From contig NZ_VYIJ01000004.1 in assembly GCF_008709555.1 (NCBI RefSeq), positions 1 to 64,000 of the forward strand: a stretch of 64,000 nt of DNA. Reading direction: 5' to 3'. Positions 1,923 through 42,890 of this stretch are shown here, piece by piece; the stretch's first letter is position 1, and each line of letters starts with the position of its first letter. Both the position numbers and the translations under genes were made by a program. The notes beneath the pieces are model-generated. The model searched no databases. It saw only the letters and a program-made list of their open reading frames with translations, and was not told the origin of the DNA. The DNA comes from Thermoplasma sp. (GTDB taxonomy: Archaea; Thermoplasmatota; Thermoplasmata; Thermoplasmatales; Thermoplasmataceae).

Positions 1923-2372
1923 ATGTCTCTAATTGTAACAGACATATTGAAATATTACGAACCCGAAATAAATGATGATCGCATCTCAAAGCTCTATATA
2001 ACCACATCCAGGAAAGTTCTGGGGCAGGCCTACAGTCTCCAGAACAAGATGATGGTCGTTGGAAAACTCCTGGATGTTGCAATAGTTCCTGACAAAGAGA
2101 AGATAACAGAAACTGCAGTTCCAGGTAGAGACAGACTGATCGGAACAAAGCTGGAGGCCTATTTTTTCACTGCAAATGGAAGCGATAGGGATTATCTCTT
2201 CTTCTCCTCGAAGTTCAGTCATATCCTGACAGAATATGCCATATTTGCTGAGGAATATGAAGTCAAGGTTGAGTTCATCTATGTGCAGAAAAAGATAGGA
2301 AAGATAAAACTGTACACGAAAGGTACAGTCATGGACAGTTACAGATCACAGGAGAGTGAGAGTGTTGGATGA
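1923..2372 (+). CDS. uncharacterised protein, translationally coupled to Vps4-like ATPase
   Basis: 149-aa ORF overlapping the start of the downstream AAA gene by 17 nt. Confidence 0.75.
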   Translation: MSLIVTDILKYYEPEINDDRISKLYITTSRKVLGQAYSLQNKMMVVGKLLDVAIVPDKEKITETAVPGRDRLIGTKLEAYFFTANGSDRDYLFFSSKFSHILTEYAIFAEEYEVKVEFIYVQKKIGKIKLYTKGTVMDSYRSQESESVG

Positions 2373-3483
2373 GGCAAGCGAGAAGATAGACAAGGCCACG
2401 AAATTGCTCCAGGGAGGCATGAAGGAGGAATCTCTGGGCCACAGGGACAAGGCAAAGGAATATTATTTTGCGGCTTACAGGCTCATGCTTGAGGCTGCCA
2501 ACGCATCACCTCCAGATCTTAAGAAGAAGAGACTTGATCAGTGCAATATAATTCTCAGCGCCTACCAAAGGGTCAACGATAACGTTCAGGCCAACCCGGA
2601 ATCAAGAGAAAACGATAGTATATCAGAAGGTGAAGCCCTACTGGAGGAGATCGGCCTCGAAAAACCAGAAATACCCAGGGTTACGTTTGAGGATGTTGCA
2701 GGACTGGATGAAGTAAAGAATGAGATCCTGGGCAAGATCGTATATCCCATGAAATTCAAGGAGCTTTCCCAGGAATACAACATTCAGTTCGGTGGTGGAA
2801 TGCTCCTCTATGGGCCACCTGGAACCGGAAAAACATTCATAGTCAAAGCCATAGCGAATGAGGTCAGAGCGAGATTCATAAATGTGAATCCAGCTAGCCT
2901 CTACAGCCAGTGGTTCGGAATGTTCGAAAAAAACATATCGAAGCTGTTCAGGGCTGCAGCGCTTCTATCCCCAGCCATAATCTTCTTTGACGAGATTGAC
3001 GCACTTGTGCCCAAAAGAGATACTTCAAATTCGGACGCCGCAAAACGGGGTGTTGCGCAGTTGCTCAACGAGGTTGGAGGTATAAATTCTCAGAAGAACA
3101 AGAACCTCTTCATAATAGCCGCCACAAACAATCCATGGGAGATAGACGAGGCAATGCTTCGGCCCGGAAGATTCGATATAAAGGTATACGTTCCCCCACC
3201 GGACATCGTAGCGAGAAAGAAGATATTTCAGCTCAACATGGCCAAGGTGAAACAGGCCGGCAGTATTGATTATGACCTGCTCGCCCAACAAACAGAAGGC
3301 TACAGTGGTGCGGATATTGAGTTCATATGTAAGAAGGCAAGTCAGAATGTCTTCATGGAGGCAGTGAAATCTGGAAAACAGAGACAGGTCGAGACGAAGG
3401 ACCTTCTGGATGTCATAGGGAGCATAAGACCATCAATTGATGCCGATCTGCTCTCAAAATACAGGGAGTTTGCAGGTATTTGA
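2356..3483 (+). CDS. MIT-domain AAA ATPase, Vps4/CdvC-like
   Basis: N-terminal MIT-like helices (EKIDKATKLLQGGMKEESLGHRDKAKEYYFAAYRLMLEA); Walker A GPPGTGKT, Walker B IIFFDEIDAL, arginine-finger region AATNNPWEIDEAMLRPGRFD. Confidence 0.9.
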   Translation: MRVLDEASEKIDKATKLLQGGMKEESLGHRDKAKEYYFAAYRLMLEAANASPPDLKKKRLDQCNIILSAYQRVNDNVQANPESRENDSISEGEALLEEIGLEKPEIPRVTFEDVAGLDEVKNEILGKIVYPMKFKELSQEYNIQFGGGMLLYGPPGTGKTFIVKAIANEVRARFINVNPASLYSQWFGMFEKNISKLFRAAALLSPAIIFFDEIDALVPKRDTSNSDAAKRGVAQLLNEVGGINSQKNKNLFIIAATNNPWEIDEAMLRPGRFDIKVYVPPPDIVARKKIFQLNMAKVKQAGSIDYDLLAQQTEGYSGADIEFICKKASQNVFMEAVKSGKQRQVETKDLLDVIGSIRPSIDADLLSKYREFAGI

Positions 3484-40149: not shown

Positions 40150-40776
40150 ATGATACGCTTCGGCAAGATTGTATTCACCGGCACTGATCTAGGAACGGAT
40201 TTCAAGATATACCGTTCCTTCTCTCACCTTCTTCTTCCAGATCCGAGGTCCACTAATTACTTCGTTATGCAGTGCAGAGGGGGGCATGTGCACTTCTTTC
40301 TTGGGAGTGATGACCTTACGAGCTTCAACTTCATCAGCAGGTTCTTTGTAAGGCTCTATCCCAGCTACATAGTCGACGAGGATCCAGATATGCAGATAAA
40401 TGCGTCAAGACGTTATCTTTTGAGGAGAGGGGACAGACGATCCGGCGAGTTCTATTTCCCGGACCTGATCGATGACATAGTGTCGTTTCACAGCACATTT
40501 CCGGATATCCCCCTTACCTATGTGTGCAGCGTGATATCCGGAAAGACCCATGCAGGTAGAAGGTATTCGATGTACATCGATATCGGGATCGGATCCTCAG
40601 AACTCAATCTGGACAGCATTTTTACCGTATTCGAGGAAACATTCAATTCTCTCAGGATGAGACATGGCGTAAAACTGAAAAAGATCAGGATCGCACCAAT
40701 CATGATGAATGACCTGATGCGGTATCCATTCAACCTCATAAATTTCGTTCGAGTACCGGCTGACATAAATGTTTGA
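40150..40776 (+). CDS. uncharacterised partner of HerA/TraG-like ATPase
   Basis: 208-aa ORF overlapping the start of the next gene by 8 nt. Confidence 0.75.
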   Translation: MIRFGKIVFTGTDLGTDFKIYRSFSHLLLPDPRSTNYFVMQCRGGHVHFFLGSDDLTSFNFISRFFVRLYPSYIVDEDPDMQINASRRYLLRRGDRRSGEFYFPDLIDDIVSFHSTFPDIPLTYVCSVISGKTHAGRRYSMYIDIGIGSSELNLDSIFTVFEETFNSLRMRHGVKLKKIRIAPIMMNDLMRYPFNLINFVRVPADINV

Positions 40777-42682
40777 CTATGATCCATCGATCCATTCTGG
40801 AAGAAGGATGGATTCTGGCATATTGATCGGATACCAGAATGACGGTTCACCCTACTTTCTTCCTGTAGATATGTTTTCAGGGCATCTTTCAATAACTGGA
40901 AAGACCGGTACAGGGAAGTCCAGCTATCTGCGTTTCCTCATAAAGAACATGGATGATGTACCCGGCAATCTTGTAATAATTGACCCGCATGGTACACTTA
41001 TGGATTCGGTATACAGTTCCAGAAGAGATCTGGTGTATCTCGGTCTCGATAGTGTCGTTATTGATGGGTTGGAAAGGAAGATGATGATGAACGTTCTCGA
41101 TCAGGATGCTGATCCTGATATGGTGGCTGGATGGATTAAGTCCATATTCTCATCATCCTCGTTTTCCAACAATACATGGGGACCAAGGCTTGACGTCATG
41201 TTCAGATCGGTTCTTGCTGAGTACATAAGGGATGCCGAATATCCAACGCTCTCAGATTTTTTCAGCATAATTGCAAGTCCAGTAAGGACAAGGGCCTTCA
41301 TATCTGGCATGCAGGACGGCCCGGTTAAAGATCTCATACAGAGTTTCATCTCGGATAGGGCGTACTGGAGGGAATACACCGCATCGACCCTCAATAAGAT
41401 CATACCAGTGATATCCTCCATGAAGCTTTCAGATCTGGTATCATCCAGAAAATCATTTGATCTCTATTCCACGATGTCGCAAGCCGGTAAGCTTGTATTC
41501 GTGGATGTTGCCAAGGGAAAGATGCCATCCGACGTGTCCTCGCAAGTATCCTATCTAATTCTAATGAAGATATGGTTTGATTCGCTCAGGAGGTACGGTA
41601 ATGGCCGGGTTGTGAACACGTACATATTCGTTGATGAGGCTCAGAACATACCCACGGGGATACTGGAAACCATACTGAGCGAAGGCAGAAAATATGGCAT
41701 GCGGTTGATACTCTCGAACCAGTACATGGATCAGGCATCGGCCTACCAAGCAGCGCTTTTTGGGAACGTGAGGAACTACATATCATTTCAGGTCTCTCCA
41801 TCGGACGCTGTTATTCTTTCCAGAACCGTAGAAGAGAGAAGGCGTAACCATATGATCAGCGTTCTTACCTCACAGCGCCTTCACAAGTTCACAGCGTGGT
41901 CAAGCGACCAGACCCTGGGACCGGCAACGCTCTCGTTCACTCCGCCTGTATTCACTCCGGATGACCGGATACAGAAGAGTATTATAAGGTATGGATCAGA
42001 ACCGGACTGGACCATGGAGAAGGATGTGCAGACGTCTCTGCATTCACAGCTGATAATGGATTTTGCAAGGTTCCTGGATATGAATGGAATAAAAGTGCAG
42101 TTCGGCCATTTTGGCAATCTGATACCTGATGCTCATTTCTATCTGGATGGACGGATCTATATGGTTGAGGCGGAGGTATCCGACATGGAACATCCCTCAA
42201 GGATATTGGAGAAGATCAGGAATTACAGAAACTACAATCTCATATTCATAACGGATGATTCCCGGATCGAGGAACTATACAAGATTCTCTATGAAAGGAG
42301 GAAAGTGAACATCGACGGCACCATACAGTTTGCAGGATCTGTCAGATCGCATATATCAGACATCTCCGGCATATTTGAGAGAGTATGGATAGTGTCCGCA
42401 CAGGGAAAACCCAAATATCATTTCCTCGGAAAAAACCACAGGTTCATTAGATCAGTGTTGGAGGAGTCTCCATTCATGACAAGACTGAAGCGCGTCAGGT
42501 TTGGCCCAACCCTCATGACGATATATGAACTGATGAAATCCAGAGACACATATATATTTACGAAGGATGAAATTATTTCATTTTTCAATTTTGATACTGA
42601 TTTTATAGAATCAATAATTGACGAAAACGGAATTATTTCATTGTATGACATTTTTTTAAATACAAAACTAAAATTTCACTAG
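40769..42682 (+). CDS. HerA/TraG/VirB4-like DNA-pump ATPase with C-terminal PD-(D/E)XK-like region
   Basis: Walker A TGKTGTGKSSYLRF, NLVIIDPHGTLMD, Walker B TYIFVDEAQNI, sensor LSNQYMDQ; C-term IPDAHFYLDGRIYMVEAEVSDMEHPSRILEKIRNYRNYNLIFIT. Confidence 0.82.
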   Translation: MFDYDPSIHSGRRMDSGILIGYQNDGSPYFLPVDMFSGHLSITGKTGTGKSSYLRFLIKNMDDVPGNLVIIDPHGTLMDSVYSSRRDLVYLGLDSVVIDGLERKMMMNVLDQDADPDMVAGWIKSIFSSSSFSNNTWGPRLDVMFRSVLAEYIRDAEYPTLSDFFSIIASPVRTRAFISGMQDGPVKDLIQSFISDRAYWREYTASTLNKIIPVISSMKLSDLVSSRKSFDLYSTMSQAGKLVFVDVAKGKMPSDVSSQVSYLILMKIWFDSLRRYGNGRVVNTYIFVDEAQNIPTGILETILSEGRKYGMRLILSNQYMDQASAYQAALFGNVRNYISFQVSPSDAVILSRTVEERRRNHMISVLTSQRLHKFTAWSSDQTLGPATLSFTPPVFTPDDRIQKSIIRYGSEPDWTMEKDVQTSLHSQLIMDFARFLDMNGIKVQFGHFGNLIPDAHFYLDGRIYMVEAEVSDMEHPSRILEKIRNYRNYNLIFITDDSRIEELYKILYERRKVNIDGTIQFAGSVRSHISDISGIFERVWIVSAQGKPKYHFLGKNHRFIRSVLEESPFMTRLKRVRFGPTLMTIYELMKSRDTYIFTKDEIISFFNFDTDFIESIIDENGIISLYDIFLNTKLKFH

Positions 42683-42719
42683 GAAAAAAGATTATACTAC
42701 TTCTTAATAGTGTCTTGAT

Positions 42720-42890
42720 ATGACTGACAACAAGAAGATAATGGATATCGCGAGAATGACAAAAAGAGGTGCTTCTGTCAGAGTTACAATTCCCAAGAAA
42801 GTACTGAAGAAACTCAACTTCAAGGATGAAGATCTCATCGCTTTTTATGAATCGGATGACGGCCGAATATACATAGACCTTTTGAAGTGA
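42720..42890 (+). CDS. AbrB/SpoVT-like swapped-hairpin protein (not in ORF track)
   Basis: MTDNKKIMDIARMTKRGASVRVTIPKKVLKKLNFKDEDLIAFYESDDGRIYIDLLK, 56 aa. Confidence 0.8.
   Translation: MTDNKKIMDIARMTKRGASVRVTIPKKVLKKLNFKDEDLIAFYESDDGRIYIDLLK

Follow-up and report, generated by a model that had tools for sequence, protein, structure and literature searches.

MOBC relaxases, the proteins of the Replic_Relax family (PF13814; PMC5357655), are listed in NCBIfam as 'MobC family replication-relaxation protein' and are part of the PD-(D/E)XK superfamily (PMC12857230). They are represented by TraX of pAD1 and MobC of CloDF13, are free-standing, have an N-terminal winged helix and act on the oriT of plasmids. 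Their motif arrangement is PD...ExD...K. They are associated with VirD4-type T4CPs: among the nearest bacterial T4CPs checked, a separate Replic_Relax gene adjoins that of the T4CP in Embleya, Pelotomaculum and an Acidobacteriales MAG, and in Enterococcus pAM373 the two lie a few genes apart.

In the conjugative plasmids of archaea the DNA-cutting mating enzyme, the relaxase, has to our knowledge never been found. Plasmid transfer in S. islandicus requires TraG (PMC9899855), and that of pT33-3 requires its VirD4-like protein (PMC12857230). The TraG/VirD4-like proteins of the Sulfolobales and Thermococcus plasmids (pNOB8, pING1, pAH1, pSOG1, pTC and pT33-3) are about 1000-1370 aa long, possess their own N-terminal domain of 240-290 aa, and have a VirB4 partner. 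They end in a PD...EIES tail, and the stretch ahead of this tail is winged-helix-like by eye. Since the protein is needed for the transfer and carries such a tail, the tail is a candidate for the missing enzyme, as far as motifs and weak profile scores can point to one. Every Sulfolobales conjugative plasmid seen has a small ORF of about 125-165 aa that is convergent with traG and either overlaps its 3' end or directly adjoins it (L214-L220, L260-L263).

Two other described systems are built around motors of the FtsK/HerA superfamily. In the HerA-NurA end-resection complex the motor is coupled to a nuclease. The ATPases of the Ced/Ted DNA import systems (CedB, CedD) are chromosomal and serve DNA exchange in archaea. 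They are VirB4-type, often membrane-anchored, go together with the CedA channel and have no described nuclease tail; it takes both CedB and CedD to cover one VirB4-like N-terminal domain (PMC11868833).

The locus considered here belongs to a heat-loving Thermoplasma-type archaeon with a genome of 1.45 Mb in 46 contigs, and lies in the window, which is the whole stretch of 64,000 nucleotides that was analysed. We suggest, with about even confidence, that two of its genes encode one domesticated conjugation-type DNA translocase with a MOBC-like nuclease, serving DNA exchange or end processing. All features are on the + strand. The first gene (40150..40776) encodes a protein of 208 aa, of no known family, with the C-terminal end ...NLINFVRVPADINV. 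The second (40769..42682) encodes a protein of 637 aa, which reads as a DNA translocase of VirD4/TraG type with a fused nuclease-like domain. The stop of the former and the start of the latter overlap by 8 nt (40769..40776), which suggests translational coupling. An AbrB/MazE-like gene of 56 aa (42720-42890) starts 37 nt past the ATPase gene, so that the three ORFs, the overlap and the gap are those of the earlier note on this DNA. We regard the ORFs as genes and not as chance frames, because the ATPase has homologues in 48 of 61 relatives and the 208-aa protein in about 30, and because the sister species examined have retained the overlap. Among named records the nearest ATPase is that of a Thermoplasma MAG (70% identity); Thermogymnomonas acidicola holds a further one. 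In T. acidicola (L165:9842-11400) and in another genome (G010) the ATPase and the nuclease-like tail are in two frames, split or frameshifted.

The surroundings of the gene pair are of housekeeping type, with thymidine kinase, a permease, TrpRS, an eIF2B-like protein and cytochrome genes (most named by eye), and the same holds for the ATPase neighbourhood in other genera. Neither T4SS nor integrase nor defence genes are seen beside the pair, and the GC content of the module (0.445 vs 0.454 for the window) is typical. A mobile element was rejected on these two observations. The locus is also not part of an integrated conjugative element with full T4SS genes nearby, which the earlier note had raised against its own reading: VirB4 above cut-off is found in none of 21 genomes, the window's own included.

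The motor is, by its HMM scores and its place in the tree, a VirD4/TraG-type coupling ATPase and not a HerA. In Pfam the window ATPase matches TrwB_AAD_bind with 38.2 bits (cut-off 20.5), DUF87, and TraG-D_C with 22.1 bits (cut-off 22); among its homologues TrwB_AAD_bind matches 30 of 30 and TraG-D_C 24 of 30. An HMM of the ATPase part finds bacterial T4CPs at up to 4e-97 and the archaeal plasmid TraG proteins at 3.6e-54 to 1e-27, whereas HerA of the same and related organisms scores more weakly (2e-20 to 1.5e-16). In a tree of 38 ATPase domains the Thermoplasmata proteins form one clade (99/97), which lies near the T4CPs and is distinct from both HerA and VirB4. A HerA is encoded elsewhere in the genome and falls in a separate clade, and the NurA of the genome is on another contig (G000:C43), not beside the ATPase. 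Thus, from the HerA/TraG-like label proposed earlier, the FtsK/HerA superfamily and the TrwB/TraG domain remain and the HerA part falls away. Against curated models the window ATPase reaches 20.9 bits for the HerA equivalog (cut-off 970) and 23.7 bits for CedD (cut-off 600), and phage records hold no match to it. The Walker A sequence GKTGTGKS occupies residues 44-51 (40898..40921) and the Walker B acidic pair is D289-E290 (41633..41638). The Walker A lysine, D289-E290, R307-K308, Q318 and N333 are invariant in 22 sequences. With the P-loop already at residue 44, the long N-terminal region is absent from the ATPase, as had been noticed before. No 19-residue window in the ATPase or the 208-aa protein is strongly hydrophobic, so an N-terminal membrane anchor is not detected; by hydrophobicity the archaeal plasmid TraG proteins likewise have none.

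This makes the window ATPase similar to plasmid TraG in its VirD4-type domain (E ~1e-27 to 1e-54), in the lack of an obvious N-terminal membrane helix and in the PD...ExE tail at the C-terminus. However, unlike plasmid-borne TraG, it is chromosomal, only 637 aa long, without the N-terminal region, accompanied by a separate 208-aa gene and not by VirB4. HerA-NurA shares with it the coupling of a superfamily motor to a nuclease, but here the ATPase is of another clade, and the putative nuclease belongs to another family and is part of the motor's own polypeptide; HerA and NurA are present in the genome besides it.

The C-terminal domain spans about residues 415-520 (42011..42328) and is probably of the PD-(D/E)XK type, a reading that we hold with good confidence. 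In 39 diverse sequences, where identity in the domain averages about one third per column, H425 (42041..42043), D454, E467, E469 and D472 are invariant, and P453, S471 and K482 (42212..42214) are nearly so. The PD motif is P453-D454 (42125..42130) and the ExE motif E467-x-E469 (42167..42175); the most conserved stretch of the ATPase C-terminus is IPDAHF...VEAEVSD. In our reading the order of elements, a helix with the H, a strand with PD, a strand with ExE and a helix with the K, is that of the PD-(D/E)XK core. D454, E467 and E469 correspond, as residues, to the conserved D and E-x-(K/E) of this superfamily, and BamHI provides a precedent for ExE in place of ExK.

That the domain is moreover MOBC-like we consider slightly better than an even bet. 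The arrangement PD...ExD/E...K of the MOBC/Replic_Relax active site is present in it. In Pfam the isolated domain comes closest to Replic_Relax (E 0.031, 14.8 bits, gathering cut-off 25.3); with other members CoiA_nuc and Hjc are also hit, below threshold, and phrog_2190 (replication initiation) matches five members. All these family-level matches fall below the curated cut-offs, Replic_Relax above cut-off has no match in 145 genomes of the phylum, and a sequence search of the domain against the PDB finds nothing. In hhalign the domain aligns to ten Replic_Relax proteins with P 8e-4, with the PD, ExE/ExD and K positions matched, and to the tails of thirteen archaeal plasmid TraG proteins with P 0.0034 over 135 columns. 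As controls, 38 unrelated families from the same loci all gave P 0.01 or worse, reversed profiles gave nothing, and after shuffling of the columns the probabilities did not exceed 0.1%. The Hjc profile is not significant against the domain (P 0.18), and the plasmid TraG tails reach only P 0.07 against Replic_Relax. We note that in Thermoplasmata the T4CP and the Replic_Relax-like domain are in one protein; this fusion is a link between them that does not depend on the weak sequence scores. The nuclease-like C-terminus of Replic_Relax type, anticipated by the earlier note, is thus supported by the invariant residues together with the sub-threshold Replic_Relax match. The winged-helix end that it had added is not seen: there is no Pfam match at the end of the window protein and no winged helix is detected in it, and in an order-level relative HTH_45 appears ahead of the domain with E 0.02. 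Hence, the domain would share with MOBC relaxases the PD...E-x-D/E...K motifs and the association with a VirD4-type T4CP, and unlike them it is fused to the T4CP, has no detectable winged helix in this species and has no known oriT.

The 208-aa protein belongs to a family absent from Pfam. Searches of Pfam, NCBIfam and PADLOC give nothing above cut-off (DUF3432 only at E 0.08, in one relative), and the PDB gives nothing significant. Its partnership with the ATPase, proposed earlier from the overlap, gains support from matching presence and absence even where the genes are unlinked. Among 35 near-complete genomes from the taxonomic family, 23 have both genes and 12 have neither. In the aIF2-alpha tree all genomes that lack the pair group in one clade, which therefore records one joint loss or gain, not many; repeated independent losses were rejected on this ground, and the co-absence, being a single event, counts against the explanation that we prefer. 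In the sister species examined the two genes overlap by the same 8 nt. Outside this genus the partner is unlinked from the ATPase in most genera, and is often near V-type ATPase genes.

We suggest that the partner probably stands in place of the N-terminal domain that is fused in related ATPases. Its position fits the proposal that it supplies the missing domain; homology to such a domain is not detected. In hhalign the partner is not significant against the N-terminal domains of plasmid TraG proteins or against the ~200-aa products of genes that in other families run into the start of the ATPase gene (k53, k18). A split-off N-terminal domain is thus argued from position and from the tail motif L..hh.hP, picked post hoc, which occurs in 20 of 23 partners vs 2 of 1458 other ORFs. 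In two other families of the order, different genes of about 167-221 aa extend 7-38 nt into the start of the ATPase gene. These encode 218-221 aa in L105, L110, L079 and L101 and about 167-212 aa in L080, L102-L108 and L111-L112; they look like position-equivalents of the partner, with no homology to it detected.

The gene pair is chromosomal, mostly single-copy and vertically inherited, and is present in 16 of the 19 genera of its family. Few proteins of the neighbourhood evolve as fast as the partner and the ATPase: between two species the identity is 34% for the partner and 50% for the ATPase, vs 67-89% for most neighbours. The AbrB gene, taken earlier as a third member of the module, is far more conserved than its neighbours (84-98% within the genus, where the ATPase has 50-77%), has a separate history and is not found beside the ATPase in other genera; on this evidence it is not counted as part of the unit. 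A toxin-antitoxin role of this gene was rejected, as no toxin adjoins it within the genus.

We suggest that a former conjugation coupling module became a vertically inherited chromosomal system in Thermoplasmata. The 637-aa protein would be a soluble, presumably hexameric VirD4/TraG-type DNA-translocating ATPase, whose C-terminal domain would be restriction-endonuclease-like and akin to the MOBC relaxases (Replic_Relax). The 208-aa protein would be its obligate subunit, added at the ATPase N-terminus. The resulting cytosolic translocase, in which the ATPase subunits carry tethered nuclease domains, would bind, cut and move chromosomal or incoming DNA, most likely for intercellular DNA exchange or for the processing of broken DNA. 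The sequences show the type of motor, the conserved residues of active-site kind, the overlap of the genes, their co-occurrence, the lack of a T4SS and the vertical inheritance; what we infer is the nuclease fold and activity, the complex with the partner, the hexamer, the direction of movement and the role. The genome has no VirB4 and no channel or pilus gene is seen beside the pair; a transfer role would therefore be one without its channel. On this reading, organisms without known T4SS would have converted a conjugation motor into a chromosomal machine of the host.

The strongest of the other explanations is a DNA-repair machine parallel to HerA-NurA, in which the motor feeds broken ends to its own nuclease domains and yields recombination-ready ends, with no transfer between cells. 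HerA-NurA is a precedent for such a motor with a nuclease (PMC9960219), and the mostly single chromosomal copy, the vertical inheritance in 16 of 19 genera, a genome without T4SS and the soluble appearance of both proteins all agree with repair. However, the organism already has its own HerA and NurA, the relatives of the motor are T4CPs of conjugation and not HerA, a whole clade lives without the pair, and the pair evolves faster than its neighbours. We hold this explanation to be unlikely, at roughly one chance in four.

A system against viruses or plasmids, where pump and nuclease destroy foreign DNA as the HerA-nuclease defence complexes do, is considerably less probable. Defence pairs of HerA with a nuclease are known (PMC11291478), the fast evolution of both proteins would suit them, and the best defence match is PADLOC MADS protein 8 (E 7e-14). 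But this match is limited to the ATPase domain, and no other defence gene adjoins: genes that would mark an operon of HerA or MADS type are not found, the neighbours being housekeeping. The distribution is core and vertical, not patchy, and in most genera the genes are unlinked, unlike those of defence operons. The defence module that the earlier note named as one possibility is not supported by a vertical, mostly single-copy pair in 16 of 19 genera, and of the exchange, end-processing and defence roles the last is the least supported. Least probable of all, though not far behind, is a catalytically dead domain for DNA binding or scaffolding on a mere translocase, e.g. for chromosome segregation, for which speak the ExE instead of the usual ExK and the library matches that all stay below cut-off, and against which stand the invariant H, D, E, E and D over 39 sequences of such low mean identity and the same arrangement, PD...ExD...K, in Replic_Relax proteins.

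Returning to the domesticated translocase with a MOBC-like nuclease, we put forward a wider proposal as a tentative one, a little more credible than the repair machine and still improbable. The PD...ExE tail of archaeal TraG/VirD4-type proteins would be the missing archaeal relaxase, a nicking domain of MOBC type fused to the coupling ATPase, used by the conjugative plasmids of Sulfolobales and Thermococcus and domesticated in Thermoplasmata as a two-gene chromosomal machine for DNA exchange. Should the TraG-type tail be a MOBC-like nuclease, its fusion to the pump would explain why this enzyme escaped notice.

Three further observations concern other genes. Many genera of the family have, adjacent or close to the ATPase, a gene for a protein of about 310 aa that matches nothing in Pfam or the PDB, and another family of the order, f3, has it near the ATPase too (L069:7794-8744 and equivalents, alignment A3). 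It is found only in genomes of the ATPase-bearing lineages and is absent from this genus and from the ATPase-less clade. At a separate locus (L114:2068-7277, L115, L118) the genomes of family f3 encode a membrane protein of about 343 aa, a protein of about 194 aa and two tandem VirB4/CedD-like ATPases, which looks like a Ced/Ted-type DNA-import locus in Thermoplasmata. Finally, positions 2356-3483 of the window, following a 149-aa gene, encode a protein of 375 aa that by its sequence resembles an AAA ATPase of Vps4/CdvC type.
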